From Gammaproteobacteria bacterium (GTDB lineage: Bacteria > Pseudomonadota > Gammaproteobacteria > Beggiatoales > Beggiatoaceae), in assembly GCA_003645255.1 (NCBI GenBank), contig QNES01000004.1, positions 1 through 62,641 of the forward strand: a stretch of 62,641 nucleotides of DNA, given 5' to 3'. Below the pieces are notes generated by a model, which saw nothing but the letters and a program-made list of their open reading frames with translations, was not told the DNA's origin and did not search any database. The translations under genes and the position numbers were made by a program. This document shows, in pieces, positions 1,223 through 41,073 of this stretch (its first letter is position 1; each line of letters begins with the position of its first letter).

Positions 1223-1576
1223 TAATGGCTGTGCCCTTGTTTGAGATAAAGGCTATCTAATAAATAGCGCAAAAATTGTGTAGAAACTTGAGTAAAATGA
1301 TCGGTAACCCCTAAATCACGTAATTGTGTCACTTCTAAGCCGGTATAACCACATGGATTAATCCCGGCAAAAGGGGTAAACTGCTATATCGCCAGTATTG
1401 AGTAAATGCTCACGCTTGCCCGCTTGCCCTAATGTGTATACGGACGGGTGTTGAAGCACCCACAGTTCATCAAGGGTATCTACATGCCTGGTATTGGTAA
1501 ATTGCCGCATAGCTTGATAAGTCGGTTGATAGGAAACAAGTCCAAGGTGACGAATAAGAACGGGAATAAAGGGCAT
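1222..1576 (-). pseudogene. lipB: lipB remnant (octanoyltransferase) with central deletion and frameshift
   Basis: The N-terminal 66 or so codons match LipB (LDELWVLQHPSVYTLGQAGK, then LNTGDIAVY). The sequence then jumps into a different frame that reads PFAGINPCGYTGLEVTQL, the C-terminal LipB block, and ends at a TAA at 1222-1224. Compared with the usual length of about 210 residues, roughly 95 are missing, including the RGGQ.TYHGPGQ region and the GL.I..G.SFHG block that carry the active site. LipB moves octanoate from acyl-ACP to lipoyl domains, so this copy cannot function. lipA, which acts next in the pathway, is intact at 33662-34546. A functional LipB must be elsewhere or replaced, unless the join is an assembly error. 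Confidence 0.88.
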
Positions 1577-1652
1577 AATTAGCGTGAGTTTTTATATCAA
1601 AATTTAATTTTTAAGTTACCACAGGTGGAACCTGTGGTAGTGGTTAATTCAA

Positions 1653-1955
1653 ATGGAAACCTACAAACCTAAATACAAAAAAAGACAGCACCCAACTTAT
1701 TATAAAACAATCTGCCCAGATTGTGATCTCATCTTGACTGTGAGGTGGGCATATTTTAGCGCATTGCCTACACATATTCATCGTACTCGACAAAATGTTT
1801 GCCCTTTTTGTCAAGGTACCGTTATTCAAACGGTAAAAATTAATCAATCAGAATATATTGCTATTAATCAACAATGGGATATAGTTGATCTAAGCGAAAT
1901 AAAAGATGATAATTTGAGTGATTGGACATCCTGGGGTTGTTTAAACGAAACATGA
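1653..1955 (+). CDS. small zinc-ribbon protein, function unknown
   Basis: A 100-residue soluble protein with two CxxC knuckles, CPDC at about residues 22-25 and CPFC about 30 residues later, as in a treble-clef or zinc-ribbon metal site. The basic N-terminus (KPKYKKRQHP) could contact nucleic acid. No family is recognised. Its stop overlaps the likely ATG of the DUF99 gene in an ATGA arrangement, a sign of translational coupling, which supports it as coding over the antisense frame at 1644-1847. Confidence 0.6.
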   Translation: METYKPKYKKRQHPTYYKTICPDCDLILTVRWAYFSALPTHIHRTRQNVCPFCQGTVIQTVKINQSEYIAINQQWDIVDLSEIKDDNLSDWTSWGCLNET

Positions 1956-2539
1956 AAACACTGGAAATATTGCTACAACAAAATCGTATCCTCCGAGTTA
2001 TCGGTTTCGATGATGCACCCTTTGAACATCATCAGGGGGCTAATGTCAATGTGGCAGGTGTCGTGTGTGCAGGTACCCAATTTGAAGGAATGCTATGGGG
2101 AAAAGTACAAAAAGATGGCGATGACGCGACGGAAGTATTGAGCCAATTACTCTTAAAAAGCAAATTTTATGATCAAGTGCATTTAGTATTGATTGACGGC
2201 TTAGCGATGGGCGGATTTAATCTTATTGATTTACCCGAATTAGCCCTCAGTCTTAATCGCCCCTGTGTGACTGTCATGCGAAAACAACCTAATTTGGCTG
2301 CGATCCAAAAAGCTCTTCAAAACCTACCCAATAGCACTAAACGTTGGAACTTGATTCATAAAGCAGGTCCCATTTATCAGCAAAAGCCCTTTTATTTTCA
2401 AACGCAGGGCGCAAACCCTGATGTAGTCGGTAAAGCCCTTGAACGCCTTACCAGATTGGGACATGTACCTGAAGCTTTGCGATTAGCACATTTAATCGGT
2501 TCAGCTGTGATGACTGGACAAAGTAGTAATCGGGCATAA
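1952..2539 (+). CDS. DUF99 (UPF0215) family protein
   Basis: 195 residues from the ATG at 1952, which overlaps the previous stop by four bases. An in-frame upstream ATG at 1922 lies inside the preceding gene and is less likely. The sequence has the DUF99 signature: RVIGFDDAPF near the start, a VLIDGLAMGGFNLID block mid-protein and P.....RKQPNL after it. DUF99 proteins share the endonuclease V-like fold and occur mostly in archaea and some bacteria. No activity is established, so none is asserted here. A short GGGCGAAC/GTTCGCCC hairpin follows the stop and may end transcription. Coupling to a zinc-ribbon protein hints at nucleic-acid metabolism, by inference only. Confidence 0.8.
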   Translation: MKTLEILLQQNRILRVIGFDDAPFEHHQGANVNVAGVVCAGTQFEGMLWGKVQKDGDDATEVLSQLLLKSKFYDQVHLVLIDGLAMGGFNLIDLPELALSLNRPCVTVMRKQPNLAAIQKALQNLPNSTKRWNLIHKAGPIYQQKPFYFQTQGANPDVVGKALERLTRLGHVPEALRLAHLIGSAVMTGQSSNRA

Positions 2540-2552
2540 AATCGGCATATTC

Positions 2553-2582
2553 GGAGGGCGAACCTGTGTGTTCGCCCCTACA
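2553..2582. repeat. GGGCGAAC hairpin repeat
   Basis: GGGCGAAC and GTTCGCCC pair around CTGTGT, ending in CCCTAC. It lies between the convergent DUF99 and AAA ATPase genes. Close relatives are at 1196-1222 and 9993-10021. Confidence 0.6.
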
Positions 2583-2596
2583 AGCCATATCTCGTC

Positions 2597-5134: not shown

Positions 5135-8100
5135 CTAATAAATCACCTTAACTTTATTTTCTCCAACCACCCCTTCTAATTTTTCAATCAAAGCCGCCTC
5201 CGGTTTCACTCGCCATTTATCCCCTAATACTAATTCCACTTGGGCATCTCGACGCTGATAATGAATCAATACTTGACAGCGTCCTTCTTCTTGAAGATGG
5301 GGAGTGAGAGTGGCGACTAATTGAGGTGCAAAGGTTTCCGGCTGAGTTTGCAGGGCTGATATGGTGATTTCTAAACGCAGTGCTTTGTTTTCACGCGCCG
5401 TTTCCAGAGTCAAAAGGTTATTGGCAGTCATGCTATAACCGCCGTTGTAGTTATCAACACGCACTTCTCCTTCTGCTATTAATAAGGTGTCTTTAGTCAA
5501 AATATGAGATACAGTAGCATATAATTCTGAAAAAATCTTAATTTCCATTCGCGCCGAGCTATCATCTAAAGTGACAAAAGCCATGCGTCCACCACCGTGT
5601 TTAGTACTCATACGCACTTGTGTCACCCAACCGGCGATGCGGACCGTTTGTTTATGGTTAGTTGGTTTCACCTCAATCAGGCTCGTACATTTGAGTTTAG
5701 CTAATTCAGGTAAATAGGGTGTAATAGGATGCCCACTTAAATAAAAACCTAAACATTCTTTTTCATAATTTAAGCGTTTTGCTTGCTCCCATTCTGATAC
5801 ATTTTTTACAAAAGGTAATTCTTTTGTCTGTTTTTTCGTTCCTGCGAGTGAACTAAATATATCATTTTGTCCCACAGCACTATCAGTAGAATGTCGTTCT
5901 GCTGATTTAATGGCACCGTCTAAAGAAGCCATCATCACGGCTCTACTTGGTCCTAATTTGTCTAATGCCCCTGTTTTAATTAAGGGTTCTAACACGCGCC
6001 GGCTGGCTTTGCGGAGATCAATACGGCGGCAAAAATCAAATAAATCGGTAAAAGCTCCCTTTTCTTCACGCTCAGTAATCATACATTCCAGTGCGGCTTC
6101 ACCAGCACCTTTAATGGCGCCTAAACCATAATGAATGGATTTATTTTGATCATCTGCGATAGTGAACTTGTATCGAGAAACATTGATTTGAGGCGGTAAA
6201 ACTTTAAGCTTCATCGTGCGACATTCTTCAATCAATGGGATCACTTTATCCGTATTATCCATATCTGCTGATAAAACGGCAGCCATAAATGCGGCTGGAT
6301 AATGGGCTTTTAGCCAGGCGGTTTGATAGGCAAGGAGGGCGTAGCCGGCACTATGACTACGATTAAAACCATAAGCGGCAAATTTTTCCATTAAATCAAA
6401 GATATAAGTCGCTTTTTTCTCTTTGACACCCCGATTAGTAGCACCTTCAACAAATACTGATCTTTGTTCTGCCATTTCTTTAGGAATTTTTTTACCCATG
6501 CAATTATGGACAATAAAATCATTGGCAACAAAGTTGTGGGTTTCTGAAATGCTTAAATCGAATACTTCTTCTTTACCAATATATTCAATAGAAAGAATAT
6601 CGTCCCAAAATACCTCAGATTCAGCAATGTGCCTCAATTGTTCATTTTGTAGAGCGATTGCAAAATTGCGTACTCTATGGCGTGCTAAATTTCGAGTTGG
6701 TGCTTTTTGGAAATTTAAAGCAGAAGCCATAGAGCCTTTTTTTGCGTCAACGGCTTGATCAATATCAGCCCAAGTCATACCACTGGCATATTTGGCAGAT
6801 GCAATTAGTTTAATCACATCCGCTGGAATAGTATGTTTAGACTGATTTCGTGATTTATCTTTAATAACAAAATAACAAGCTTGAGCCTTTTTCCATTTGT
6901 AACGACTCAACGAAGGTTGAATTGAGTCACAGAATTTAAGCATATCCTCACGCCCAGTTACTTGTGCTCGATATGAAATATATGGTTTGCCTCGATATAT
7001 TGCTTTTTTAAGATTAAAAAGAGCAACAATCCCTAAACGCAATAGTAAATGCTGAATTTGTCTAATAAGCACTTTGGAAGTTGAGTTGTAATCAGCATGT
7101 CCAATCAATGTGTCAAAGCTACCATCCGTTGACCATAGCGTTCCCAAAAATAATTGTAATTGACATTTAGGTAATGAAAACACCCAAATAGGAATTTCTT
7201 TATCTCTAGAATAAGCACGTTTTATATGCCAATCTACCCAACTCTTAAATTCTGGAACAAAACCAATTCTAGCGTATGCGACTGTTTTATGACCAGGATG
7301 TACCTGATAATCTATAGGTGCAGGATAACCAAAAAGTTCTTCCGCACAGAGATTAAAATCAGCAATTAAATCAGGATCAGTATTACAAAAGTAACTACGA
7401 GATGATGTTTGGGGGCAGAGATGTCCATCACCAATTAAATAAGCTGTTAATTTGATTTGAGCATCTGAAATCTCGTTATTATGAGTAATAGGAATGTTTT
7501 TAGCTAAAGCAATACGATCTCCAATTTGAAAAGCCTTTAGCGGTTTCCATCCTAATAAGGTGTAAAAGAGATGATCTTCCGTTGCTCGAATTTTGCGATG
7601 GGTTTTAGTTATAATTTCCCAAACATCTCGGATGCCATTAGGATAAATTGCAGTGATTGGCTGTTGAGTTATCTTTTGTGTTTTTAAATCTAAGGTGAAA
7701 ATATTACGTCCTAACCAAAATTTTGGATATAACGCAATTTCACTTAAAGTCAATAAACGCCCGGTACTGGCATCAACGATTTCAGTTGTTCCACTCAAAC
7801 AACGACGGAGTAAATCAGCACCCCCCAACGTATAACCAGCTAACACTTGAGCAATTTGCATCACCTGTTCTTGATAGACAATGACACCGTAAGTCGGTTT
7901 TAAAATGGGGGCGAGATCGGGGTGCGGGTATTCTACTTTAGCACGCCCTTGTTTACGTTCAATAAAATCATCTACCATGCCCGACTGTAAAGGACCTGGA
8001 CGGTATAAAGCGACTAATGCAACAATATCTTCAAAGCAATCCGGGCGCATTCGCCGAATCAGTTTTTTAAGACCTCCAGATTCCAATTGGAAAACCGCCG

Positions 8101-9898
8101 TTGTATCACCCCGTTTAAGTAAACTATAAGTACCAGGATCATCAAGGGGAATTTTGGAAATATCAATGGGACGGTCAGCAAAATGATTAATGGTTTGTAA
8201 AGCCCATTTGATAATCGTTAGGGTTCGCAGCCCTAAAAAGTCGAATTTGACTAAGCCAACGGCTTCAACATCGCCCTTGTCAAATTGAGTCATTAAATCG
8301 GTACTGTCTTCTTCACAATAAAGAGGGGTAAAATCGGTCAAGACACTAGGTGCAATCACCACTCCCCCAGCATGTTTACCTGAATTACGAGTCAGTCCTT
8401 CAAGCTTACGCGCCATATCTATTAAGGCACGCACCTCTTCTTCTTGCTTGTAGCGGCTGCGTAAAGTATCTTCTTTTTCGAGTGCTTTACCCAGGGTAAT
8501 ACCGAGTTCAAAGGGGATGAGTTTGGCAATTTTATCAACAAAACCGTGTGGGTGTGCTAATACGCGCCCGACATCCCGCACGACCGCTTTAGCAGCCATG
8601 GTGCCATAAGTGATAATTTGTGAAACGCGCTCCCGCCCATAGCGTTTTGCAACATAGCTAATAACATCGTCGCGACCTTCTATACAAAAATCAATATCAA
8701 AGTCGGGCATCGAAACCCGTTCAGGATTTAAGAAGCGTTCAAATAGGAGTTCATAGTGAATTGGATCTAAATCGGTGATATTAAGCGCATAAGCGACTAA
8801 TGAACCGGCACCGGAGCCACGACCAGGACCCACTGGAATATTATTTTCTTTTGCCCACTGAATAAAATCGGCTACGATCAAAAAATAACCGGGAAAGCCC
8901 ATTTGTATAATGGTGTCAAGTTCCAGGACTAACCGTTCATCATAAGGGCGGCGTTGCTCGGTAAAGGTTTCATTGCTTTTGTCAAAAAGGGTGTTTAAAC
9001 GTTCTTCTAAACCAATGCGAGCTTGGTTGCGAAAATATTCTTCAACGCTTTGCCCTTGGGGAATGGGGAAATCAGGTAAAAAGTTTTTGCCCAGGGTTAA
9101 TTCTAAATTGCAGCGTTGGGCAATTTGCCAGGTGTTTTCAATGGCTTCTGGTATATCGGCAAATAATTCTGCCATTTCCTGTGGGGTTCGCAAATATTGC
9201 TGGGGACTGTAGCGATGGGGACGATTTTGATCTGCCAGTATAAGACCGTCGTGAATGCACACGCGCACCTCATGCGATTCAAAATCGTCACTGTTTAGGA
9301 AACAGACATCATTGGTTGCAACGACCGGGACACCGCTTTCTATAGCAAGTTCAACAGCCGCGTGGATATATTCTTCTTCGTGGGGTCGTCCGGTACGTTG
9401 CAATTCTAAATAAAAACGCTGTGGAAACCAGGCGTTCCATTTATCCAGGCGTTGTCGCGCTAAATGACTATGTCCGGCTAACAGGGCTTGTCCTATATTA
9501 CCTTCGCGCCCCCCAGATAGAGCAATTAAACCTTCCGTTGCGCCGTCTAACCATTGATAGTGTAAATAAGGAATACCGTCTTTTTGCCCTTCGGTATAAC
9601 AACGCGAAACTAAACGGGTTAGATTACGATAACCTGTATGATTTTGACATAATAGGACCAGACGGGTAGAGGGTTCAGCTTCCTGGGGAAGCTGTACCTC
9701 GACACCAATAATGGGTTTAATTCCTTCCTTATGTGCGGCGCGATAGAATTTAACCAGGGCAAACAGATTACTATAATCAGTGATTGCCCCGGCGGGCATT
9801 CCAGCCTCACGCATTGTTTTCACTAAGGGTTTAATGCGAATGAGGCTATCAATTATGGAATATTCGGTGTGTAAATGTAGATGAACGAAATGGGACAT
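5135..9898 (-). CDS. dnaE: DNA polymerase III alpha subunit with in-frame intein
   Basis: 1587 codons, of which about 1154 remain after removal of a 433-residue intein; E. coli DnaE has 1160. The N-terminal PHP domain begins HLHLHTEYS. The polymerase core follows with GPGRGSGAGS and the catalytic PDFDIDFC. After the intein come the rest of the fingers region (MGKKIPKEMAEQR), the helix-hairpin-helix region and an OB fold near RIAGWVTQVR. This is the replicative polymerase subunit, joining epsilon and the beta clamp. The intein splits the conserved LGGADLLRR/(A)MGKK block, so splicing is essential for activity; the residue after it is Cys instead of the usual Ala. The gene stands alone. Upstream lie about 250 bp with hairpins and no gene. 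Confidence 0.97.
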   Translation of the reverse strand: MSHFVHLHLHTEYSIIDSLIRIKPLVKTMREAGMPAGAITDYSNLFALVKFYRAAHKEGIKPIIGVEVQLPQEAEPSTRLVLLCQNHTGYRNLTRLVSRCYTEGQKDGIPYLHYQWLDGATEGLIALSGGREGNIGQALLAGHSHLARQRLDKWNAWFPQRFYLELQRTGRPHEEEYIHAAVELAIESGVPVVATNDVCFLNSDDFESHEVRVCIHDGLILADQNRPHRYSPQQYLRTPQEMAELFADIPEAIENTWQIAQRCNLELTLGKNFLPDFPIPQGQSVEEYFRNQARIGLEERLNTLFDKSNETFTEQRRPYDERLVLELDTIIQMGFPGYFLIVADFIQWAKENNIPVGPGRGSGAGSLVAYALNITDLDPIHYELLFERFLNPERVSMPDFDIDFCIEGRDDVISYVAKRYGRERVSQIITYGTMAAKAVVRDVGRVLAHPHGFVDKIAKLIPFELGITLGKALEKEDTLRSRYKQEEEVRALIDMARKLEGLTRNSGKHAGGVVIAPSVLTDFTPLYCEEDSTDLMTQFDKGDVEAVGLVKFDFLGLRTLTIIKWALQTINHFADRPIDISKIPLDDPGTYSLLKRGDTTAVFQLESGGLKKLIRRMRPDCFEDIVALVALYRPGPLQSGMVDDFIERKQGRAKVEYPHPDLAPILKPTYGVIVYQEQVMQIAQVLAGYTLGGADLLRRCLSGTTEIVDASTGRLLTLSEIALYPKFWLGRNIFTLDLKTQKITQQPITAIYPNGIRDVWEIITKTHRKIRATEDHLFYTLLGWKPLKAFQIGDRIALAKNIPITHNNEISDAQIKLTAYLIGDGHLCPQTSSRSYFCNTDPDLIADFNLCAEELFGYPAPIDYQVHPGHKTVAYARIGFVPEFKSWVDWHIKRAYSRDKEIPIWVFSLPKCQLQLFLGTLWSTDGSFDTLIGHADYNSTSKVLIRQIQHLLLRLGIVALFNLKKAIYRGKPYISYRAQVTGREDMLKFCDSIQPSLSRYKWKKAQACYFVIKDKSRNQSKHTIPADVIKLIASAKYASGMTWADIDQAVDAKKGSMASALNFQKAPTRNLARHRVRNFAIALQNEQLRHIAESEVFWDDILSIEYIGKEEVFDLSISETHNFVANDFIVHNCMGKKIPKEMAEQRSVFVEGATNRGVKEKKATYIFDLMEKFAAYGFNRSHSAGYALLAYQTAWLKAHYPAAFMAAVLSADMDNTDKVIPLIEECRTMKLKVLPPQINVSRYKFTIADDQNKSIHYGLGAIKGAGEAALECMITEREEKGAFTDLFDFCRRIDLRKASRRVLEPLIKTGALDKLGPSRAVMMASLDGAIKSAERHSTDSAVGQNDIFSSLAGTKKQTKELPFVKNVSEWEQAKRLNYEKECLGFYLSGHPITPYLPELAKLKCTSLIEVKPTNHKQTVRIAGWVTQVRMSTKHGGGRMAFVTLDDSSARMEIKIFSELYATVSHILTKDTLLIAEGEVRVDNYNGGYSMTANNLLTLETARENKALRLEITISALQTQPETFAPQLVATLTPHLQEEGRCQVLIHYQRRDAQVELVLGDKWRVKPEAALIEKLEGVVGENKVKVIY
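6503..7801 (-). other. DnaE intein with LAGLIDADG homing endonuclease
   Basis: DnaE residues 700-1132 (433 residues). The first residue is Cys (CLSGTTEIVD, block A). The block B histidine is in RATEDHLF (intein residues 72-79). Two LAGLIDADG-type motifs, LTAYLIGDGHL (about 118-128) and LGTLWSTDGSF about 120 residues later, indicate a homing endonuclease. The C-terminal splice block is NFVANDFIVHN with Cys at +1 of the extein. All residues needed for standard class 1 splicing (C1, block B His, penultimate His, terminal Asn, C+1) are present. The insertion site, between LLRR and (A/C)MGKK, differs from the cyanobacterial split DnaE site. Confidence 0.93.
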
Positions 9899-9992
9899 AA
9901 TTGTGAATGGGGAATGGGATCAAAAATTGGGAATAGCAGACATGAACACAGAATTTTATAACGTTCTTTAGATGTTCATCAAAATCATATCA

Positions 9993-10021
9993 AAGGGCGA
10001 TAACGAACGGTTCGCCCCTAC
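9993..10021. repeat. GGGCGA hairpin repeat
   Basis: GGGCGA-TAACGAACGGT-TCGCCC followed by CTAC lies in the 255-bp gap between dnaE and the DUF4389 gene. It belongs to the GTAGGGGC/GCCCCTAC hairpin family. The rest of the gap shows no gene. Confidence 0.5.
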
Positions 10022-10153
10022 GTCAAATATTTCATTGTAAAGGCAGCCTCCTTATGAAACTTGCCCGTTTATGGGTAAAAATATTTTCCTGAATATCAAT
10101 AGAATCATCAATCAGTGATAATTCAACTTTATCCATTCACAATTCACAATTAA

Positions 10154-10510
10154 TTATTCATCCTTCTGTGGCGGTTCTGACTCTTTGGGGAGACTGACAA
10201 CAACCGGGCTGGTATCATATTCATCTACTGCGGGCCAACTACTAAGTGGAAAGGGTTTTTCATCACTAATGTAGCTAAGGTAATTAAAGATTTGATGAAT
10301 ATATAGGCTGAGACTTTGAGCTAGGGGAAGTAAACGTTCATTAGGCTTGCCTGATATTAACACCACACCAAATTGAAATAATATGACGATAGCCGTGATA
10401 ATAATGGCAATATAACAAATAAAGCTATACACCAGCATAAAAAATCCGCGTAACCAAGTGCTGCCTGACAATAAGTTTTCTCTTAATTGTTCCCTTATAT
10501 TTTCTTTCAT
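10154..10510 (-). CDS. DUF4389 membrane protein
   Basis: 118 residues. One long hydrophobic stretch, about residues 20-55 (FFMLVYSFICYIAIIITAIV onward), could span the membrane once or as a hairpin. It is followed by NERLLPLAQSLSLYIHQIFN and a YISDEKPFPLS motif, the hallmark of DUF4389 proteins, small inner-membrane proteins common in gammaproteobacteria with no known function. The C-terminus is acidic and proline-containing. The gene is flanked by heptamer repeats upstream and is probably monocistronic. Confidence 0.8.
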   Translation of the reverse strand: MKENIREQLRENLLSGSTWLRGFFMLVYSFICYIAIIITAIVILFQFGVVLISGKPNERLLPLAQSLSLYIHQIFNYLSYISDEKPFPLSSWPAVDEYDTSPVVVSLPKESEPPQKDE

Positions 10511-10518
10511 GTTTTTTT

Positions 10519-10571
10519 GTTAATGATTAGTTAATGAATCATGATTAATGATTAATGATTAATGATTAATT
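10519..10571. repeat. heptamer tandem repeat (ATTAATG)
   Basis: Four direct head-to-tail copies of GATTAAT occur here, with degenerate neighbours on the left. Similar short runs recur at 10633-10650, 12738-12756, 12898-12912, 33549-33566 and 48186-48202, always between genes. They resemble the short tandemly repeated repetitive sequences of filamentous bacteria. Confidence 0.6.
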
Positions 10572-10656
10572 GTGCTGCTTTAAAAATCTAATAGAATTTG
10601 GAAAATTCATAAAAGTTTTTCCAATTCACCATTAACCATTAATCATTAAGCACTAT

Positions 10657-11364
10657 TTAGTCACTTTTATTTTTGAGTAATTCTACAATTTCTTTGAGCA
10701 GGTTTTCGATGTTTTCCAAACGCTGCTCCATCTTTGCTGGATGTCCACCAGGCATTGGCGGCATTTTTTGAGCAAAACCGCGTGCTCCAGGACCAATAGG
10801 TGGCATGGGTCTTTTGCCATAGTAACCGTGTCCTGGTCCTTGTGGACCACCCCAACCAGGAGTGCGTCCCATGCCAAAAGGTCCCCCATGCATACCACCT
10901 TGTTGCAACAATTCACGCATACTTTGGCGATTTTGTTGAAGTTGTTCCCTTAACTGTTGCCGTTCTTCATCTGACTTGGCTTGGTTCATATTCCGCCTGA
11001 GCGTTTGCATTTCTTGCCACAGGCTATCCCTTTTTTCCCTCATTTCATGGAAAGATTTGGCAGCATCAGATGGTGACGTGGCACCTGATGGCGGTTGCGG
11101 TGCGATAGGGAGAGGCGGTGCTGGAGGCGGCGGCGGTGGTATCAATTCAGAATCAGGCATTTGCATCGCAGGTGGGGCTGATGTTTCAGGTTCCGCCGGG
11201 GCTGGTGCTTGCTCCGCTGTCGGAGCAGGTGTTTGTTCTGCCGCTTGTTCTGCTGTAGGAGGAGTCCATTCCGGTGCTGCCGCTGCAGACTCTGTTTGTG
11301 CTAAGACATAGCCACTGCTCAGTGCGAGTGAAATTAAACTCGGTAAAACATATTTTTTCATCAA
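10657..11364 (-). CDS. secreted proline/alanine-rich protein with coiled coil
   Basis: 235 residues. The signal peptide is about residues 1-22 (KKYVLPSLISLALSSGYVLA, cleaved after AQ or LA). A proline/alanine-rich segment with APTAEQ-type repeats and PPPPPAPPLP (about 25-95) follows. Then comes a charged helix with many Arg, Glu and Gln residues (about 105-150, REKRDSLWQEMQTLRR) and a Gly/Met/Pro-rich stretch. A final short helix (ENIENLLKEIVELLKN) is typical of a coiled coil. It is probably periplasmic. The helix faintly recalls Spy/CpxP-type chaperones but lacks their LTxxQ motif, so no function is assigned. Confidence 0.7.
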   Translation of the reverse strand: MMKKYVLPSLISLALSSGYVLAQTESAAAAPEWTPPTAEQAAEQTPAPTAEQAPAPAEPETSAPPAMQMPDSELIPPPPPPAPPLPIAPQPPSGATSPSDAAKSFHEMREKRDSLWQEMQTLRRNMNQAKSDEERQQLREQLQQNRQSMRELLQQGGMHGGPFGMGRTPGWGGPQGPGHGYYGKRPMPPIGPGARGFAQKMPPMPGGHPAKMEQRLENIENLLKEIVELLKNKSD

Positions 11365-11500
11365 AAAATTTCCTTTGAGTTATGGGATAAATTAAAAACG
11401 TTTCAAAAACGTTTCCTACATAATGAGGGCATGGATGGCGTGTATCAAGCTTTAATCTTTTTTGTTGTTGTTAATTAATATATTATAGTTATTTATAATA

Positions 11501-12091
11501 TTATAATTTTAAAGAATCCTTACAAGCATCATCAAGTTTTGCGCCATTCAAATCCGCTTCGCTTAAATTAGCTTTAAACAAATTAGCCCCCACTAAGTAG
11601 GCTTCAATTAAATTAGCTTCAGTCAAATTAGCTTTAAACAAATTGGCTCCTGTCAAATTAGCACGAAATAAATCGGATTCAAATAAATTACTTCTAAATA
11701 AATTAGCCTCAGATAGGTTAGCCCCTGGTAAAAAGGATTCAATCAAATACGCTTTCATTAAATTGGCTTCCGCCAAATTAGCATCAGCTAGATTAGTTTT
11801 AGCTAGATAGGTTTCACAAAGATTAGCTTCACTTAAATTCGCTTTGGTGAAATTGGCTTCACTCAAATTGGCTTCACTGAGGTTAGCACCGGACAAATTC
11901 GCACCTGAAAAATTGGCATGACTCAAATCTGCCTTACTGAGATTGGCCCGAAAAAAATCGGCATTAGTCAGATTAAGTCCAACCAAATTGGCCCCCGATA
12001 AATCGGGCCAAGTACCACTGGCTGTTTTTCTCCATTTATTCCACGCTGAAACTCCCTGTTGGAGAATAGCTACGTGTTCCTCATTTGCCAT
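11501..12091 (-). CDS. pentapeptide repeat protein
   Basis: 196 residues. After a 30-residue head (LQQGVSAWNKWRKTASGTWP) about 30 consecutive A(N/D)LSXA pentapeptides run to residue 188. Such repeats form a right-handed quadrilateral beta helix. The head is common to cyanobacterial and sulfur-bacterial members. Some pentapeptide proteins mimic DNA and protect gyrase, but nothing here shows that role. There is no signal peptide, so it is cytosolic. A Cys-containing tail ends the repeat. The DNA is correspondingly repetitive (many AAATTAGC units). Confidence 0.9.
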   Translation of the reverse strand: MANEEHVAILQQGVSAWNKWRKTASGTWPDLSGANLVGLNLTNADFFRANLSKADLSHANFSGANLSGANLSEANLSEANFTKANLSEANLCETYLAKTNLADANLAEANLMKAYLIESFLPGANLSEANLFRSNLFESDLFRANLTGANLFKANLTEANLIEAYLVGANLFKANLSEADLNGAKLDDACKDSLKL

Positions 12092-12149
12092 TATTTATTC
12101 CTTTTTTTGATATTATTCTGTGGCAATCAATTCAAAGTATAATACTATT

Positions 12150-12725
12150 TTACCACCCAGTTGGAATATTAATACCAATCTCAGCTAATAATGCTGTCGT
12201 TTCATACAAAGGCAAGCCCATCACGCCTGAATAACTTCCTTCAATACGCTTAATAAAAACACCGCCTAATCCTTGAATAGCATAAGCCCCCGCTTTATCT
12301 AAGGGCTCACCCGTTGCAATATAAGCTTGTATATCAGCCTCCGTCAATTGACAAAAAGATACCTTACTAATATTCAAACGCACCCGTTCAATTGTGTTTG
12401 TCACTAAAGCGACTGCTGTCATCACTTGATGGCTACCATTTGATAATTGTCTTAATTTATGTTTTGCATCTTCTTCGTCAACGGGTTTACCGAATAATTG
12501 CCCATGACAAACTATCACCGTGTCAGCTCCTAATACGGGGAATGTTGGTGATAGTGCTAAGCATCCTGCTTGTGCTTTTGCTAAAGCCAAGCGACTCACA
12601 TAATCTTGTGGCATTTCATTAAGCAGTGGCGTTTCATCAACAGTTACGGCAATTTGTTGATAATGAAGCTTAATTTGTTTAAGTAATTCACAACGGCGCG
12701 GGGAAAGAGAAGCAAGATAAATCAT
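12150..12725 (-). CDS. maf: Maf-like nucleoside triphosphate pyrophosphatase
   Basis: 191 residues, the family's usual length. The N-terminal substrate loop YLASLSPRRCELLKQI, the central GADTVIVCHGQLFGKP block with catalytic acidic residue, and the C-terminal GSYSGVMGLPLYET are all present. Maf proteins hydrolyse non-canonical or regulatory nucleoside triphosphates to monophosphates. The SPRR and DTVI sequences resemble the dTTP/UTP-active YhdE branch, although the subgroup cannot be settled by eye. It lies upstream of nothing in its own direction except the pentapeptide gene, 58 bp further on. Confidence 0.92.
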   Translation of the reverse strand: MIYLASLSPRRCELLKQIKLHYQQIAVTVDETPLLNEMPQDYVSRLALAKAQAGCLALSPTFPVLGADTVIVCHGQLFGKPVDEEDAKHKLRQLSNGSHQVMTAVALVTNTIERVRLNISKVSFCQLTEADIQAYIATGEPLDKAGAYAIQGLGGVFIKRIEGSYSGVMGLPLYETTALLAEIGINIPTGW

Positions 12726-31079: not shown

Positions 31080-32177
31080 ATGCGTTTATTTTTTCAATTT
31101 GGTTTCAGTATTTTTTTCCTATTGGTGCAAACCAGTTTATTAGCAACCCCTCGAATTATTAATGGCATTCGGGCTAAACCAGATAATTGGTCCTGGATAG
31201 TCGCTATTATCTCTCAAGGTGTGGTCCCAGTTAAAGGGCAGTTTTGTGGTGGAACATTAATCCATCCTTCTTGGGTATTGACAGCGGCGCATTGCGCCGA
31301 TGGTGAAACAACATCTAGTATAAACGTTCTATTAGGAACCAATGACTTAACGGATGAAAACAGAGAAATTATTGGCATTAAGCGGATTGTCAGACATCCT
31401 GATTATGATTATGATCCGGAAACACCAAACTCAGATATTGCTTTATTACAACTCGAAAAACCTTCCACACAACCGGTGATACGAATAGCAGATCGTTACA
31501 CAGTACTAATTCAGCCAGGGCTTGATGCGACAGTGATGGGATGGGGTGCGACAAATAGTTTATCAGACCCGGTCTATCCTGAACACTTACAGCAAGTAAC
31601 CGTACCCATCGTTTCAAATACACAGTGCAATGAACATTTTTCGTATGCAGGTGATGTTAAGGAGACTATGCTTTGTGCCGGTTTTGCTGATGGAGGTGCC
31701 GATGCTTGTATAGGAGACAGTGGTGGACCTCTCGTTATGAAAACGGGCAGTGGTTGGCAACAAGTCGGTATTGTCAGTTGGGGAGAAGGCTGCGCCTTAC
31801 CCAACTATTATGGTGTTTATACCCGTGTTCCTTTTTTTCAATCGTTCATGACTGAAAATATTTGTCAACAGGCGGATATTCCCCCTTCACCACATTTAGA
31901 AGTGCATAAAGATGAAAAGTCCGTCACTATTTCCTGGAATCAGGTGAAAGCAGATGGCTATCAACTTTACTATGCGCCTTATTCTAAGCCACTGAGTAAT
32001 GTTACCCTGGACAATATTGAAAGCCTGGAACTTGGCAATCGCACCTCTTTCAATGTGAAATTAACCTCATTAAAAGTATTTTCTGACCAAAATTTTTATG
32101 TCGCAGTACGCGCCTATAACGGTAATTGCTATAGTGATTATTCTAATCTTTGCACGATTATGATGGACGAACTATGA
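31080..32177 (+). CDS. secreted trypsin-like serine protease (S1A) with C-terminal Fn3-like domain
   Basis: 365 residues. The signal peptide is about 1-22 (RLFFQFGFSIFFLLVQTSLL). The mature-like start is RIINGIRAKPDNWSWIVAI, where trypsin activation normally gives IVGG. The catalytic triad is LTAAHC, SDIALLQL and GDSGGPLV. The Asp six residues before the catalytic Ser (DACIGDSGG) predicts trypsin-like Lys/Arg specificity. Cys pairs of the chymotrypsin fold are present. The C-terminal 90 residues look like a fibronectin III beta sandwich (SVTISWNQVKADGYQLYYAP). It is probably periplasmic or exported. Chymotrypsin-fold proteases of this animal-like type are scattered in bacteria. Confidence 0.93.
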   Translation: MRLFFQFGFSIFFLLVQTSLLATPRIINGIRAKPDNWSWIVAIISQGVVPVKGQFCGGTLIHPSWVLTAAHCADGETTSSINVLLGTNDLTDENREIIGIKRIVRHPDYDYDPETPNSDIALLQLEKPSTQPVIRIADRYTVLIQPGLDATVMGWGATNSLSDPVYPEHLQQVTVPIVSNTQCNEHFSYAGDVKETMLCAGFADGGADACIGDSGGPLVMKTGSGWQQVGIVSWGEGCALPNYYGVYTRVPFFQSFMTENICQQADIPPSPHLEVHKDEKSVTISWNQVKADGYQLYYAPYSKPLSNVTLDNIESLELGNRTSFNVKLTSLKVFSDQNFYVAVRAYNGNCYSDYSNLCTIMMDEL

Positions 32178-34577: not shown

Positions 34578-37500
34578 TTAACCTTTTCCTTTAAGCTCAT
34601 CTCCCAAACCAAAGAATTGCTCAACCTGTTTAAGTAGCTTTTTATAAATGGCTTCTTTTTCGGTTTCAACATCATGTTCAACAGACGTTTTAACCGATTG
34701 GGTCGCCATCTGTCGCTGGGTTAATACTTTAGTCACGAGTTCTTTAACTTCTGGTTGCTGTGCAATTAAAGGCGCGATATCAGCCTGAGTTAATTCAAAT
34801 AAATAGGTATCAACAATAGCAACGACAGTAGCAGCTCTATCTTCACCCGTTAAAAGTGCCATTTCACCAAAGAAATTACCAGCACCTAACCGAGCCACTT
34901 CTTTAATTATTCCTTCATCCGTTCGCACCTTGACGACAACAGCCCCTTCAACAATAATGAATAAAGAATCACCTACGTCTCCTTGTTGAACAATAACATC
35001 ACCTTTTTCTATGTGATGATGGCGGATCTGCTGGCTGAGGTGAAGTTTAGCTTGTTCAGAAAAGGGTTTAAATATCTCGACTTCTTTTAATAGAGTAATC
35101 GGCTTAGTCGCTTCATCCCCTCCTCTTTCTTTAATCCCCTTAAATAAATGAATTTCTTGCCGTTGGACTGCTGGGGTGATACCAGCCCGATTGAGATGAA
35201 ACCAAACTCGCGTCCAAACATCTTCTAAAATAAAAAATTTATTGGCATAGTCATCGGAGCAAAACGCTATCCAATAACTGGCTGCCCATTCATTAATACC
35301 TGTTAAAAAAACCACAGGTGCAGGCTCTTTAAGTACTTGATTACTTGATAACAAAGCATCAAGAAGAACTTTTTTAACGCGTTCCGGGGAATGCATAGGA
35401 TGAATGTAAACAGTAGGCCATAACCAATAAACATTATCGGGAAAACAGAAATTAAGAATAGGAGATTCAGAAGCCATACTATTTGGAATGCTTAAAATAC
35501 ATTGTTTGCGGGTTAAAAGGCGAGTGGTTCGCCAAGTAATATCAACGATTTTACCTTCCTCAAATTCTCCTATTTGGACCCAATCACCAATTCGAAAGGG
35601 TCTTTCTATATTAATAGCAATGCCTGAAAAAATATTAGAAATATTGATTTGAATCGCAAGACCAATAATCATCGCGATCACACCTGAAGTTGCTAAAATA
35701 CTGGTAAGTTGTTGCTCGTACACAAAGGCAATAATACCAACTACCGCCATAAAGTAAATAATAAAAGCTAAAAATAGCCGAACAATATTAGGTATTAGGC
35801 GACCGGTTCTTTCTTCTATGGGTGTCCAAATAAAACTTTCTGAGGCTAAGTTAAGTAAAAAAGCGGGTATTATCCACCATAATATATTGAATATTCTTAT
35901 CACAAATTTCATATTATAAGCTTCGATATTATTAGACAACCACTCAACTAATAGTACTTCGCTTGATAATAATAAAATAAAGGCTAAAATACTCTGAAAA
36001 AACCAGATAATTTTGGATAAGTCTTTGAATTTCTTTGCAAAAATATTAAGAAATAAAATAAAAATACTGCTGAACACCATCATATAATAGGCCTGTTGAT
36101 ATGGAATTTTTCCCCGTAAGGTAAATTCATTCTTTTTAATCTGAATGGCGGCATTAAACAAAGAATATTCAACCGTTCCACCTTGCACATTGAGATATTC
36201 AGGATCACCTAAAGAATATTTTTTAGCAATATCGGGAAAAAAGCGGAGTTCCTCAATGGACCAACCCGTTGTCGGACTAAGCACTTGTTTTTTCTGCATA
36301 CTTTGTAAGACGGTTTGAATATCTCCCATACCCAAAAGATCAGTCACATAAATGAGATTATTTCTGGTTAATGATTTATGATGAAAGTTAACACCCAGGG
36401 TATGTTGTTTGTACACATAATGATTGGAAAAAAAGTCAGCCTTAAAACGGCTTTTAATCCGATAAAGACGGTAAGTCATTTGATCAGCCGTTTCTTCTTT
36501 GAGCGGTTGTTTTAATTGTTCTTTGATTTTTTCAAACGCGGTTTTTTCAGATTCGACTTCAACGGCATTGAGAAATTCAATATCTTGAGGTCTAAAATCA
36601 CTTCGTGATCTAAACCACAAATGAAAATCCAATAAAAAAGTTGAATTATTACTAATATGACTCATTTCATTAATTTTTATACCTGTATAAACGACATTGG
36701 TTTTATAATACAGATTATCGCCAATAAGTAAGACTCTTTCTTGAGCACGTGCTTTCTCTAAATCAGCTACTTCATTGCGGTTACGCATGACTTGAAACTG
36801 AGTGAGGGCGGAAACGAGTTGTTTATTTTTATAAACCCCAATGACAACCGGTTTTTGAGCATCTCTATTTTCATCAAAATAGTTAAAGCCTGTTGTTCCC
36901 TCTATGGCATCATGAATATTGGTGAAACTGGCTAGGGTATTGCGAATTTTTTGACGATCAGCTTGGAGGCTTTCTTGACTACCGGTAATGTTAGCCTGTT
37001 TGATGGCTTTAACGAGTACCTGTGCGCTATCATAAGCATAAGCGGCGGACCAATCAGGTTCATCTTGATATTTGGCATAATACTTGTCTTTAAATTTCTG
37101 AGCCTTCTCGTTGGCGGTATCAAATATCAATGGTGTTGCCACATAAATGTCATTAGTATAATAGCCAGGATTGCCCTTTTCCCTCGGAGAATCTTTAAAA
37201 CTATTAACAAAAGTTTGTTCAGAAAAACCAGAACCACTGATAATAGGGTTTGGTATATTTTCATCTTTAATGAGTTTGACCAGGGGAGTACCTTCACTGG
37301 CTTGTGTCGCCAATAAAATGGCACCGGCCTGTTGTTCGTCTTGCTTCAATTGAGCAATGTAATTTTCAAAATCTTTATGGTCACCTGTTTTAAAATCCCA
37401 TTTATGTCTAATTTCCATACCGAGTTCACGAGCTGATTTTTCAAATACTTCAGCAAGGTATGAGCCATAACCACTATCATCACGAATGATAGTCACTTGA

Positions 37501-38030
37501 TTAAGCCGAAATACTTCTTTAACATAATAAGCTAAAAATTGGCCGGAAACACTTGCATTATAGATATTTCTAAAATACCATTCGTTATCCTCAGTGACTT
37601 CCTTTTTAACCGAACCTGGTGTGATAGCAGGAATACCATATTTTTTATAAATTTTTCCACCGGTTATAGAACAAGAACTATACCAATGTCCAATAACGGC
37701 AACCACTTCATTTTCTTCCACAATTCTAAGAGCTTCATCTTTGGCGGCGGTTTCATCACCTTCTTCTTTGCATTGGTTTTGATCATCAAAATCCTTTAAT
37801 TCAAATTTTTGGTGATTGTCTTTATCTCTTTCATTATTGACTTCATCAAAATATAATTGGATAGCTTGCTTCATTAATTTACCCGCAACGTCGCCCTTGA
37901 CTGACATAGGACCTATAAAAGCAATTTTTACGGTTTGTTCTTTATCGTAAAAAAAATATTTTTGGATTGCCGTCCAAAATAAAAAAGATAAAATGACGAC
38001 AATAGCTAACATGAAAAAGTTGTTTTTCAT
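34578..38030 (-). CDS. fusion channel: periplasmic binding domain, beta-rich periplasmic domain, MscS pore, cyclic-nucleotide-binding domain
   Basis: 1150 residues. A signal anchor (about 5-23, FFMLAIVVILSFLFWTA) precedes a LivJ/Peripla_BP_6-type binding domain (about 32-420; VKIAFIGPMSVKGDVAG, VVAVIGHWYSS, YGIPAITPG). A second periplasmic beta-rich domain (about 440-640) follows with NSTFLLDFHLWFR, the RIKSRFKADFF block and NNLIYVTDLLGM. It loosely resembles the ligand-binding sandwich of Cys-loop channels. Several membrane helices (about 645-800) lead into the MscS pore and beta domain (GVIAMIIGLAIQINIS, ERPFRIGDWVQIG, LSIPNS). The C-terminal cyclic-nucleotide-binding domain (about 990-1110) has the phosphate cassette GEMALLTGEDRAATV. 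It is inferred to be a channel gated from outside by a small solute and from inside by a nucleotide. It lies 28 bp downstream of its paralogue. Confidence 0.88.
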   Translation of the reverse strand: MKNNFFMLAIVVILSFLFWTAIQKYFFYDKEQTVKIAFIGPMSVKGDVAGKLMKQAIQLYFDEVNNERDKDNHQKFELKDFDDQNQCKEEGDETAAKDEALRIVEENEVVAVIGHWYSSCSITGGKIYKKYGIPAITPGSVKKEVTEDNEWYFRNIYNASVSGQFLAYYVKEVFRLNQVTIIRDDSGYGSYLAEVFEKSARELGMEIRHKWDFKTGDHKDFENYIAQLKQDEQQAGAILLATQASEGTPLVKLIKDENIPNPIISGSGFSEQTFVNSFKDSPREKGNPGYYTNDIYVATPLIFDTANEKAQKFKDKYYAKYQDEPDWSAAYAYDSAQVLVKAIKQANITGSQESLQADRQKIRNTLASFTNIHDAIEGTTGFNYFDENRDAQKPVVIGVYKNKQLVSALTQFQVMRNRNEVADLEKARAQERVLLIGDNLYYKTNVVYTGIKINEMSHISNNSTFLLDFHLWFRSRSDFRPQDIEFLNAVEVESEKTAFEKIKEQLKQPLKEETADQMTYRLYRIKSRFKADFFSNHYVYKQHTLGVNFHHKSLTRNNLIYVTDLLGMGDIQTVLQSMQKKQVLSPTTGWSIEELRFFPDIAKKYSLGDPEYLNVQGGTVEYSLFNAAIQIKKNEFTLRGKIPYQQAYYMMVFSSIFILFLNIFAKKFKDLSKIIWFFQSILAFILLLSSEVLLVEWLSNNIEAYNMKFVIRIFNILWWIIPAFLLNLASESFIWTPIEERTGRLIPNIVRLFLAFIIYFMAVVGIIAFVYEQQLTSILATSGVIAMIIGLAIQINISNIFSGIAINIERPFRIGDWVQIGEFEEGKIVDITWRTTRLLTRKQCILSIPNSMASESPILNFCFPDNVYWLWPTVYIHPMHSPERVKKVLLDALLSSNQVLKEPAPVVFLTGINEWAASYWIAFCSDDYANKFFILEDVWTRVWFHLNRAGITPAVQRQEIHLFKGIKERGGDEATKPITLLKEVEIFKPFSEQAKLHLSQQIRHHHIEKGDVIVQQGDVGDSLFIIVEGAVVVKVRTDEGIIKEVARLGAGNFFGEMALLTGEDRAATVVAIVDTYLFELTQADIAPLIAQQPEVKELVTKVLTQRQMATQSVKTSVEHDVETEKEAIYKKLLKQVEQFFGLGDELKGKG

Positions 38031-38058
38031 AATGGCTTATTTACCCTTTCAAATTGAA

Positions 38059-41000
38059 TTAATGAGAATGTATAGTAAACGGATTTTTAAGGCGATCCTG
38101 TTTGACCAGGTTCCCTTCCTGTGCAGGAACAAATTCCTGTATGGGTTCCAATGTGCCTGTTTTTGAGTTTTTTGAAGATGATTTATTGGGTAAAACCATT
38201 CCTTGCCCACCTTTAAAAACATAAATTTCTTGTCGCATAACCGCCGGTCCAATGTTAGCGCGATTAAGATGAAACCAAACCCGTGTCCAAACTTCCTCTA
38301 AAATCATATATTTATTACTATAATCTTCAGCACAAAATGCAACCCAATAAGAAGCTGACCATTCGTTGAGGCCTGTCATAAAAATAAAAGGTTCAGGCTC
38401 TTTAAGTACTTGATTGGCTGACAATAAAGCATCCATGAGAATTTTTTTCACCCGTACGGGTGAATGTTTAGGGTGAACATAAACGGTAGGCCATAACCAG
38501 TAAACAGGTTTTGGATAATGGAAATTGAGAATGGCCGATTCTGATGCAATACTATTAGGAATACTGAGTATACAGCCATTTCTAACTCTAAGACGAGTTG
38601 CCCGCCAATTAATATCAATGACTTCTCCTTCATCAAATTTTGAAATTTTGATCCAGTCACCAATTCTAAAAGGACGTTCCATGTTAATCACAATACCTGC
38701 AAATACATTGGAAATATTAATTTGAATAGCTAAACCAACAATCATTGCAATGACACTAGAAGCCGCTAATAAACTGGTGAATTGCTGTTCATATACAAAC
38801 ACAATAATCCCAATGATGGCGATAGAGTAAACCAACAGAGAAAAAAAGTGACGAATAATAAGAGGGAATGGACCAATTTTTTCCTCTAAACGTCTCCAAA
38901 TAAAACGTTCGGTTGCGACATTACATAAAAATGCAGGGATTAACCACCACAATATATCAAATATTTGGATGATAGATTTCATTTGCTGTAAGCCTGTATT
39001 TTCAGCCAGCCATTCAGCAAAAATAATTTCACCACTGAGCAGCCAAAGAAAGGCAAAAATCACTTGAAAAAACCAAGTCAATTTGGGAAATTTTCTCAAA
39101 CCTATCACCGTCAATATTAAAAAGAGAATACCACTTAATACCATGATATGCTTGGCATATTGATAGGCAATCATTCCCCTTAGCGTTAATTGATCTTTTT
39201 TAATTTGAATGACAGCATTAAATTGAGAATATTCGACTATACCTTCTAGCTTGTTGAGATATTCAGGATCACCGGCAGAATATTCTTTGATGATATTGGG
39301 AAAAAACCAGACACGATTAATTTTCCAAGCTTCAGTTGGACTGAGTACTTTATTTTCTATTAATCTTTTTTCGACAGAGTTTTTTTGATTTATTAAGCCG
39401 ATGCCTAAAATATCAGTCACATAAATGAGATGATTGCGACTTAAAGTACGATGTCGAAATTTGACACCAACAATATGTTGTTTATAAGCATAAAACTTGT
39501 CAATAAAATCCGCCCGAAAACGGCTTTTGATTCGACAAACATTGTAGATAATATCTTTAACCTTCTTGCTTTGACAGGATTTTTTTAATTGCCGTATAAT
39601 ATCAATACGATCAACTGCATTGAGAAATTCAATATCTTGGGGATTGAAATCCCCAGCAAATCGAAACCATAATTTAAATTCCAAATTAAACTGTAATTCT
39701 TTAATATTGATATCGCTAATTTCAATAATATCTAAACCAACATAGACTACATTGGTTTTATACATATACTTATCATTAATTTTTAAGACCTGTTTATTAA
39801 GAGGTGCTTGTTCAAAATGGGCAATTTCAGTCGGGTTACGTACTATTTGTAACTGTGTTAAAGCAGAAACGGAGTGTTTATGTTTATATACGCCAAGTGT
39901 AACTGGCTTTTGTGCATCTCGATTTTTGTCAAAATAATTAAAACCCGTAACCCCTTCCAATGCGTTATATAGATTGGTCAAGCTTGCTAGTGTATCTCTA
40001 ATTTTTTTTCTATCGGCAGCTAACGTTTCTCGTCTCCCTTGTATTTCTGCCTTTTTAATGGCATCAACAAGTATCATAACAGTATCGTAAGCATAAGCGG
40101 CGGACCAATCTGGGGCTTCATTATATTCCGCTTGATAGCTTTTAAAAAATTGTTGTGCTTTTTCATTAGCTGTGTCAAATATTAGAGGAGTTGCTACATA
40201 AATATTATTGGTATAAAACCCAGGGTATTCTTTTGATACTGGATAATTATCAAACCCATCACGGAAGGTTTTTTCAGAAAGTGAGGAACCACCTATGATA
40301 GGATTTTGAATGCTCTCATCTTTAATTAATTTGACTAGGCGAACAGCTTCAGTTGCTTGCACAGCTAAAAGAATGATTCCCGCATCTTTTCCTTTTAATT
40401 TTAATTCATCAACTATTTTTTCAAACTTATTATCTAAATTTTTATCATGATTATTATAATGCCAATGATTTTTAACATTCATACCGAGTTTATAAGATTC
40501 TTGTTCAAATACCTGAGCAATGTAAGAACCATAAGCCGCTTTTTCACTAATAATACTGACATCATTTTGTAAAAAAACATATTTGATATAGTTAGCTAAA
40601 AATTGACCGGGTGCTTTAGCACTATAAATATTTCTAAAATACCAGGGGTTATCTTCAGTGACTTTAATACTTGTAGAGCCGGGTGTAATGGCAGGAATTT
40701 CATATTCTTTATAAATTTCGCCGGCACTGATAGATGCGGAACTATACCAATGTCCAATAACGGCAACCGCTTCTTTTTCGTCAATAATTTGTTTAGCTTG
40801 TTGCTGAGCTATTTTGCTATCATTTTGATCATCAAATTCTTTGAGTATCACTTTTTTTCCATTAATTCCTCCCTTTTGATTTATTTTCTTTAAATATAAT
40901 TGGATAGCTTGAGTCATCAATCGACCAGCAGCGGCTCCCTCACCCGTAAGGGGACCAACAAAAGCAATATGTATAGATTTTCCATAATCTTTTAGGTAAT

Positions 41001-41073
41001 CATAATAGGCTAAAAAAATTAAACAAACCGATAAGATGATTGCACCTAAAAGAAAAAAATTATATCTTTTCAT
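38059..41073 (-). CDS. fusion channel: periplasmic binding domain, beta-rich periplasmic domain, MscS pore (no nucleotide domain)
   Basis: 1004 residues, paralogous to the next gene over its whole length. Membrane anchor about 6-25; LivJ-type binding domain about 33-420 (IHIAFVGPLTGEGAAAGRL, AVAVIGHWYSSASI, YEIPAITPGS); second periplasmic domain about 437-625 (QFNLEFKLWFRFAGDF, NHLIYVTDILGIG); several helices; then the MscS segment (SSVIAMIVGLAIQINIS, ERPFRIGDWIKIS, LSIPNS). It ends in a Ser/Lys-rich tail where the paralogue has a cyclic-nucleotide domain. The binding domain keeps the Ser-Ala/Thr ligand-contact region but differs from the paralogue at several positions, so the ligands may differ. 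The pair may form a heteromeric channel, by inference. PII and sucCD lie upstream. Confidence 0.87.
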   Translation of the reverse strand: MKRYNFFLLGAIILSVCLIFLAYYDYLKDYGKSIHIAFVGPLTGEGAAAGRLMTQAIQLYLKKINQKGGINGKKVILKEFDDQNDSKIAQQQAKQIIDEKEAVAVIGHWYSSASISAGEIYKEYEIPAITPGSTSIKVTEDNPWYFRNIYSAKAPGQFLANYIKYVFLQNDVSIISEKAAYGSYIAQVFEQESYKLGMNVKNHWHYNNHDKNLDNKFEKIVDELKLKGKDAGIILLAVQATEAVRLVKLIKDESIQNPIIGGSSLSEKTFRDGFDNYPVSKEYPGFYTNNIYVATPLIFDTANEKAQQFFKSYQAEYNEAPDWSAAYAYDTVMILVDAIKKAEIQGRRETLAADRKKIRDTLASLTNLYNALEGVTGFNYFDKNRDAQKPVTLGVYKHKHSVSALTQLQIVRNPTEIAHFEQAPLNKQVLKINDKYMYKTNVVYVGLDIIEISDINIKELQFNLEFKLWFRFAGDFNPQDIEFLNAVDRIDIIRQLKKSCQSKKVKDIIYNVCRIKSRFRADFIDKFYAYKQHIVGVKFRHRTLSRNHLIYVTDILGIGLINQKNSVEKRLIENKVLSPTEAWKINRVWFFPNIIKEYSAGDPEYLNKLEGIVEYSQFNAVIQIKKDQLTLRGMIAYQYAKHIMVLSGILFLILTVIGLRKFPKLTWFFQVIFAFLWLLSGEIIFAEWLAENTGLQQMKSIIQIFDILWWLIPAFLCNVATERFIWRRLEEKIGPFPLIIRHFFSLLVYSIAIIGIIVFVYEQQFTSLLAASSVIAMIVGLAIQINISNVFAGIVINMERPFRIGDWIKISKFDEGEVIDINWRATRLRVRNGCILSIPNSIASESAILNFHYPKPVYWLWPTVYVHPKHSPVRVKKILMDALLSANQVLKEPEPFIFMTGLNEWSASYWVAFCAEDYSNKYMILEEVWTRVWFHLNRANIGPAVMRQEIYVFKGGQGMVLPNKSSSKNSKTGTLEPIQEFVPAQEGNLVKQDRLKNPFTIHSH

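Follow-up and report, generated by a model that had tools for sequence, protein, structure and literature searches.

In textbooks, Cys-loop receptors (pLGICs) and MscS channels stand for families that are unrelated and that differ both in symmetry and in gating. In pLGICs, the pro-loop of the extracellular domain (ECD) touches the channel domain. Ionotropic glutamate receptors offer another layout, in which an N-terminal domain of the LivJ fold is stacked on a further ligand-binding domain, with a pore below. There, the second domain and the pore are unrelated to those of the proteins analyzed here, and the layout alone is similar.

Proteins that begin as ours do have been described. Tasneem et al. 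(Genome Biology, PMC549065) describe a PBP-I (LivJ-type) domain fused N-terminal to the ligand-binding domain of the ART-LGIC/Cys-loop type. The order of a LivJ-type domain followed by an ECD is that of the proteins below, but these fusions end in a four-transmembrane (TM) Cys-loop pore, where our proteins have an MscS pore instead. They are the likely source of the LivJ-ECD sensor module.

On the MscS side, excerpts of a second paper (PMC4560390) report subfamilies with large extracellular loops and with ligand-binding domains as additions, and do not name the LivJ-pLGIC-ECD-MscS architecture among them. Its reference list includes work on bCNG channels (Caldwell et al., 2010), which belong to the MscS superfamily. 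These join an MscS pore to a C-terminal cyclic-nucleotide-binding (CNB) domain, as does one of our two proteins (protein 1), whereas the other (protein 2) has no CNB domain. To our knowledge, bCNG channels carry neither a LivJ nor a pLGIC domain on the periplasmic side. E. coli MscS, YnaI, and MscK (PDB 2vv5, 6urt, 7uw5) have the TM3 pore helix, the beta domain, and the cage in common with our proteins, which differ in adding about 630 periplasmic receptor residues and two extra TM helices. ELIC, GLIC, and the GABA-A receptors share the ECD fold with the middle domain of our proteins, which, unlike them, have no M1-M4 and have mostly lost the pro-loop signature; the solved pLGICs are pentamers.

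Each module is known, of course, and so are LivJ-pLGIC fusions and MscS-CNB channels. The part that appears to be new is the joining of a pLGIC ECD to an MscS pore. No description of this was found in the open-licence literature, and within that literature the initial annotation of this locus was right to call the combination unfamiliar. Because two channel superfamilies are mixed, this MscS-superfamily channel comes close to a new class.

Two adjacent genes with a shared architecture

The window, the whole stretch of 62,641 nucleotides that was analyzed, comes from a 4.4-Mb draft genome in 313 contigs. By these genes, its nearest named relatives are Thiotrichaceae, e.g., Thiomargarita and Parabeggiatoa. 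Both genes lie on the minus strand. The upstream gene (38059..41073) encodes protein 2 (1004 amino acids), with a LivJ-type binding domain, a pLGIC-type ECD, and a predicted five-helix MscS pore, without a CNB domain. After a gap of 28 bp, the downstream gene (34578..38030) encodes protein 1 (1150 amino acids), which has the architecture of protein 2 with a CNB domain added at the C-terminus.

The initial annotation had read a LivJ domain, a beta-rich domain, and an MscS pore from both ORFs, and a CNB domain with an intact phosphate cassette from one; it had proposed a Pfam search and a search for homologs of the same order as checks. The observation holds for both ORFs at these coordinates. 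Pfam finds the binding-protein domain and the MscS domain in both proteins and the CNB domain in protein 1 only, and relatives have the same order.

The LivJ-type periplasmic binding domain of protein 2 spans residues 33-400 (39874..40977, minus strand; Peripla_BP_6, E 4.8e-40). The Pfam match itself covers residues 33-394 (E 5e-40), and residues 33-401 in protein 1 (E 1e-34). When a full-length model of protein 2 was searched with Foldseek, the best structural match was LivJ 4gnr (E 5.4e-25), and the top matches were LivJ/LivK-type proteins, several with leucine bound. All 50 matches listed were type-I binding-protein folds, so that this search is uninformative on the ECD or the pore. LivJ-type fold and family membership are given by the domain search together with the structural matches.

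The middle domain as a Cys-loop-receptor head

Pfam gives no match at residues 410-640 of either window protein, and when the MscS-type ECD by itself was searched as a profile against Pfam and the PDB, no pLGIC was found. The link between the MscS-type ECD and pLGICs rests on paralogs and on a model.

Here, the paralogs are ORFs that match over the LivJ and middle domains only, of which there are many in the 57 genomes searched (own and relatives; 52 with some match). Nine such ORFs were scanned, and some gave weak, below-cut-off matches to Neur_chan_LBD or Neur_chan_memb. A profile was built from six of the LivJ-pLGIC paralogs. Pfam reports, below its curated cut-offs, the ligand-binding domain in three of these and the TM domain in four; all six carry the P and the D of the pro-loop; and the six-paralog profile matches GLIC and GABA-A receptors across the ECD and TM regions (E ~3e-14). 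Judged by sequence, these six are LivJ-pLGICs of the type described in PMC549065.

When the 79-row alignment of MscS-type ECDs was compared with these six paralogs by hhalign, the match reached prob 100 (E 4e-61) over 222 columns. As controls, the LivJ part, the MscS part, and the TM part of the pLGICs were compared in the same way, as were reversed profiles, and prob stayed between 0.1 and 12.5; the ECD alignment, with the first TM helix included, gave prob 0.6 against the pLGIC TM part. In protein 2, the ECD so placed by hhalign, VIA, and the AF2 model comprises residues 428-626 (39196..39792, minus strand). The region that aligns with it in protein 1, residues 415-675 (36006..36788, minus strand), extends into the TM helix that follows and is 51% identical to the protein 2 ECD in the ECD alignment.

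An AF2 model of the protein 2 ECD alone (pLDDT 88.8) was matched by VIA to ELIC with a Z of 15.2 and an rmsd of 2.6 over 159 residues, and to ELIC and GABA-A ECDs generally at Z 15, ~2.6-3.3 Å, and ~160 residues; all 50 matches listed were pLGICs. Of the 50 matches listed by Foldseek, 48 are named as acetylcholine-binding proteins and two as conotoxin complexes; the best E is 1e-9. One might argue that an unrelated beta-sandwich merely resembles a pLGIC ECD here, the MscS-type domain having no direct Pfam or PDB sequence match and the Foldseek superpositions being loose (TM-score to target 0.52-0.57, rmsd 4.8-8.1), yet this is very hard to credit against a prob-100 match, backed by null controls, to paralogs in which the pro-loop and the pLGIC segments M1-M4 are present, and against the VIA matches; a generic beta-sandwich is rejected on the same profile and fold evidence with its controls.

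Because the paralog profile match, the controls, and the fold matches point the same way when taken together, the middle domain is identified, from profiles and model, as a diverged Cys-loop-receptor ECD, with both fold and homology placing it in the pLGIC superfamily. The initial annotation had seen correctly that this second periplasmic domain is beta-rich, but had missed what it is.

An MscS pore in place of M1-M4

The ECD profile match runs out with the last ECD strand (residue ~626-630), at the point where M1 begins in a pLGIC. A pLGIC M1-M4 channel domain was not found after the ECD in the window proteins; an MscS pore is there instead. In protein 2, secondary structure prediction and phmmer place five predicted TM helices in residues 637-799 (38677..39165, minus strand), at 637-657, 663-692, 695-733, 738-760, and 765-799, and the last three correspond to MscS TM1-TM3 in the phmmer alignment. 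The MscS beta domain and cytoplasmic cage follow as residues 800-940 (38254..38676, minus strand).

The pore part aligns by phmmer to residues 39-243 of E. coli MscS 2vv5 (E 2e-15). Pfam places MS_channel_2nd at residues 797-861 of protein 1 (E 9e-16) and 787-852 of protein 2 (E 7e-17), and with 58.1 and 61.7 bits this MscS beta domain (PF00924) exceeds its cut-off, which is 20.2. MS_channel_3rd (PF21082) is weak, with 19.7 bits in protein 1 (below the cut-off of 21) and 21.2 in protein 2 (just over it). Because an odd number of TM helices follows a periplasmic ECD, the cage and the CNB domain would be cytoplasmic.

Profiles and model together place the predicted five-helix MscS pore directly after the ECD, as a replacement for the pLGIC TM domain. 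We infer that the exchange ran from the pLGIC TM domain to the MscS pore. The genome itself also encodes homologous LivJ-ECD modules that carry a true pLGIC pore.

Individual pore positions are named by MscS residue numbers, transferred through the alignment to 2vv5. The equivalents of MscS L105 and L109 are M/L/I and L/M/F in 76 of 76 rows. The gate positions, 777 and 781, are thus hydrophobic in every one of these rows, and the TM3 pore helix aligns to that of MscS. The glycine equivalent to G108 is invariant in the alignment rows, and the hinge glycine of MscS, G113, has a Gly equivalent in none of the 76.

The ECD side of the junction has changed as well. Where LivJ-pLGIC paralogs carry the pro-loop P and D in six of six, MscS-type ECDs carry the P in seven of 79 and the D in two of 79; the corresponding stretches of the window proteins read YAYKQ and YVYKQ. 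Because this coupling loop is changed, coupling of the pLGIC kind cannot be assumed. Loss of a coupling signature where its partner pore is absent fits a real pore swap. This, in turn, makes the family a natural test of the role of the pro-loop.

Among the matches listed, the number of chains is a multiple of seven in the solved MscS-type entries and a multiple of five in most of the solved pLGIC entries. These chain counts make concrete a mismatch of symmetry, with a five-fold ECD on a seven-fold pore, and raise the structural question of how such a head meets such a ring.

Distribution of the architecture

Named genomes were scanned for two peptide patterns of the ECD; of the 115 stretches confirmed, the best 80 were kept, and these make up 74 loci. 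Because the loci were chosen by these patterns, conservation of the scan motifs is partly built in, and a set selected by its ECD cannot, of course, show MscS fusions without one. At 64 of the 74 loci, 77 ORFs (three of them short) have the LivJ, ECD, and MscS parts with both ends inside the locus, in the same order as in the window; at the other ten, ORFs are cut by the end of the contig or locus or lack one part by BLAST (e.g., L097, L102). Because so many ORFs repeat the order, the architecture is neither chance nor an assembly artefact. The full-length alignment consists of 74 of these ORFs plus the two window proteins, the short L073:3780-6284, L116:3792-6449, and L137:1307-3670 having been dropped; the ECD alignment keeps all 77 plus the two. 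Pfam confirmed the LivJ and MscS parts in all six members chosen for this purpose.

The 63 loci of the full-length alignment come from Pseudomonadota (Gamma-, Alpha-, and Betaproteobacteria and Magnetococcia), Thermodesulfobacteriota, SAR324, and others, the Spirochaetota being represented by a Leptospiraceae MAG. Thus, the architecture is widespread across several phyla, beyond what the initial annotation saw. A Cys-loop head on an MscS pore in several phyla means that evolution has moved a receptor head between pores. Among its carriers are Desulfonema magnum 4be13, Desulfoluna spongiiphila AA1, Azospirillum cavernae K2W22B-5, Magnetospirillum moscoviense, and Pseudoduganella ginsengisoli, and since named strains carry it, the architecture is open to experiment. 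In even samples of the class and of the phylum, each including the genome of the window and each counting ORFs of pLGIC size, the ECD is matched at 1e-5 in 12 of 274 and 42 of 398 genomes, respectively.

Trees were quick ones (LG+G4, with SH-aLRT support only). The tree that holds both kinds of output has 111 rows, eight rows with other or cut outputs having been left out, and came with a long-branch warning from the program. On it, MscS-type and pLGIC-type outputs require four changes, only one of which (of the pLGIC label) is forced by starred branches. The number of fusion events may thus be one or more than one.

At one locus, L062, the LivJ-ECD module is fused to an AAA-type NTPase, by a Pfam match that is weak and below cut-off.

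The cyclic-nucleotide arm

The CNB domain of protein 1 occupies residues 1006-1091 (34758..35015, minus strand; Pfam E 4.5e-21) and contains the phosphate cassette FGEMALLTGEDRAAT. In protein 2, Pfam reports no cNMP_binding match at E up to 1. The closest PDB relatives by sequence are the regulatory domains of PKG and PKA, and the MlotiK1 channel is among the matches listed.

Throughout the family, members occur with or without the domain, and many loci show a single member. A long C-terminus is found in 35 of 76 members, and the phosphate cassette pattern in 31 of these 35. Because the presence of the CNB domain changes 11 times on the quick tree, with seven changes forced by starred branches, it behaves as an optional arm. 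What stays constant across the set, which was itself picked by the ECD, is the LivJ-ECD. The host genome has 20 matches to class III cyclase domains, two of them partial; a cyclic nucleotide is therefore probably available in the host.

A proposed mode of action and its alternatives

Most likely, as far as sequence and model can indicate, these are solute-gated MscS-type channels, some having a cyclic-nucleotide arm. The window pair would then consist of MscS-superfamily channel subunits with a LivJ-ECD receptor on an MscS pore, gated as set out here, a reading that we consider fairly probable. The LivJ domain would close on a small, amino-acid-like solute. The ECD would relay this movement to the extra TM helices and to MscS TM1-TM3, and the relayed movement would open or tune a heptameric pore. 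In the CNB-armed subunit, cAMP or cGMP would modulate the channel from inside. Such a scheme gives MscS-family channels a plausible chemical trigger. Control by a solute outside and a nucleotide inside had already been predicted in the initial annotation.

The alternative that survives best is that these proteins are osmotic valves gated by tension, as is E. coli MscS, with the LivJ-ECD part and the CNB arm merely shifting the threshold. The pore module is clearly that of MscS and keeps its hydrophobic gate, and a title in the reference list of PMC4560390 makes at least one MscS-CNB channel tension-gated. Yet the hinge glycine is replaced in all 76 rows, some 630 receptor residues are retained ahead of the pore, and the host has three further MscS genes without an ECD match. 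We regard a simple valve as unlikely, if worth keeping in mind.

The proteins might instead conduct weakly or not at all, the MscS part being an oligomerizing scaffold from which the signal exits through the CNB domain or a partner. That a relative places the LivJ-ECD on a non-channel output (the NTPase noted above, with its weak match) speaks for such receptors; they are made quite improbable by the strong conservation of the pore-lining positions, and by the fact that less than half of the members have a C-terminus long enough to hold a CNB domain or other output.

The cassette in most long-tailed members, along with the abundance of class III cyclase domains in the genome, would suit a bCNG-type channel of the standard kind that is gated by cyclic nucleotide and whose periplasmic part serves localization or assembly only. 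This too is improbable, to a high degree, as the CNB domain is absent from protein 2 and from roughly half of all members, and it is the CNB domain that is optional on the tree while the LivJ-ECD is constant in the ECD-selected set.

The tandem pair in the Thiotrichaceae

Returning to channels gated by a solute, the question arises what two adjacent subunits might do together. The pair stands side by side, with the CNB-less gene first, in 12 of 36 genomes of the same family (own included; several contigs are shared with the named loci, so that the two sets of counts are not additive). At one of these 12 loci the upstream gene is broken. Since the two genes are 28 bp apart in the window and 75-364 bp apart in the 11 relatives, co-transcription is not assured.

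The initial annotation had taken the neighboring PII and sucCD genes as hints of nitrogen or carbon status as the cue. As a general cue this is rejected: PII adjoins the pair in two of the 12 loci (the window and L028) and sucCD in four (the window, L028, L033, and L036), in counts where the contig ends within ~0.5 kb upstream in L027 and L037.

On the tree, a single group (SH-aLRT 99) takes in the 29 pair members of both sides. A single branch (SH-aLRT 92) unites the 14 partners of the CNB side, one of which is truncated where its locus ends; for the CNB-less partners, this quick tree does not resolve a clade of their own. Because pair members group across genomes, the duplication predates the split of these lineages. 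In the Thiotrichaceae, the CNB and CNB-less subunits are an old tandem pair whose members probably act together. More tentative, and something short of an even bet, is the proposal that an ECD of the five-fold type works in or above a seven-fold MscS ring, in which the two subunits would co-assemble and integrate an outside solute with an inside nucleotide.

The two sides of the pair differ in the LivJ domain as well. Residue 134 of protein 2 is at a position that we take to be the Thr of the S-x-T site, which holds the amino acid in LivJ-type proteins. At this position, Thr is found in 32 of 50 rows from loci without the pair. The 13 CNB subunits of the pair all have Val, which suggests, from the alignment, a different or lost binding of solute in that subunit; their 13 CNB-less partners have T, V, A, D, or E.

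Relatives with other partner domains

The module formed by a LivJ-type binding domain and the extracellular domain of a pentameric ligand-gated ion channel (pLGIC; LivJ-ECD) is joined in three proteins to a C-terminal SBP_bac_1 domain, a second binding protein unrelated to the LivJ domain. These are encoded at positions 611-4156 and 8858-12469 of locus L060, and at 6501-10073 of locus L061. The latter two of the three match the pLGIC transmembrane profile. Because of this match, their C-termini should be periplasmic, and the channel would bear a binding protein at each end.

In L066:1831-4704, where the module sits on a pLGIC pore, a DUF697 domain is found at the N-terminus. In L062:3020-6394, the LivJ-ECD module leads, in place of a channel, into a region that looks like an AAA/NACHT-type NTPase; here, the match to Pfam AAA_22 is weak, below the cut-off.

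The genome that holds the window encodes a third LivJ-ECD-MscS protein lacking a cyclic-nucleotide-binding domain (contig C3, L038:4813-7797), 43% identical to protein 2, the 1004-residue LivJ-ECD-MscS product.

Other genes in the window

An intein with a LAGLIDADG domain splits the DNA polymerase III alpha gene (5135-9898). Judged by eye, the translation of the open reading frame at 31080-32177 resembles a secreted serine protease of the trypsin type.
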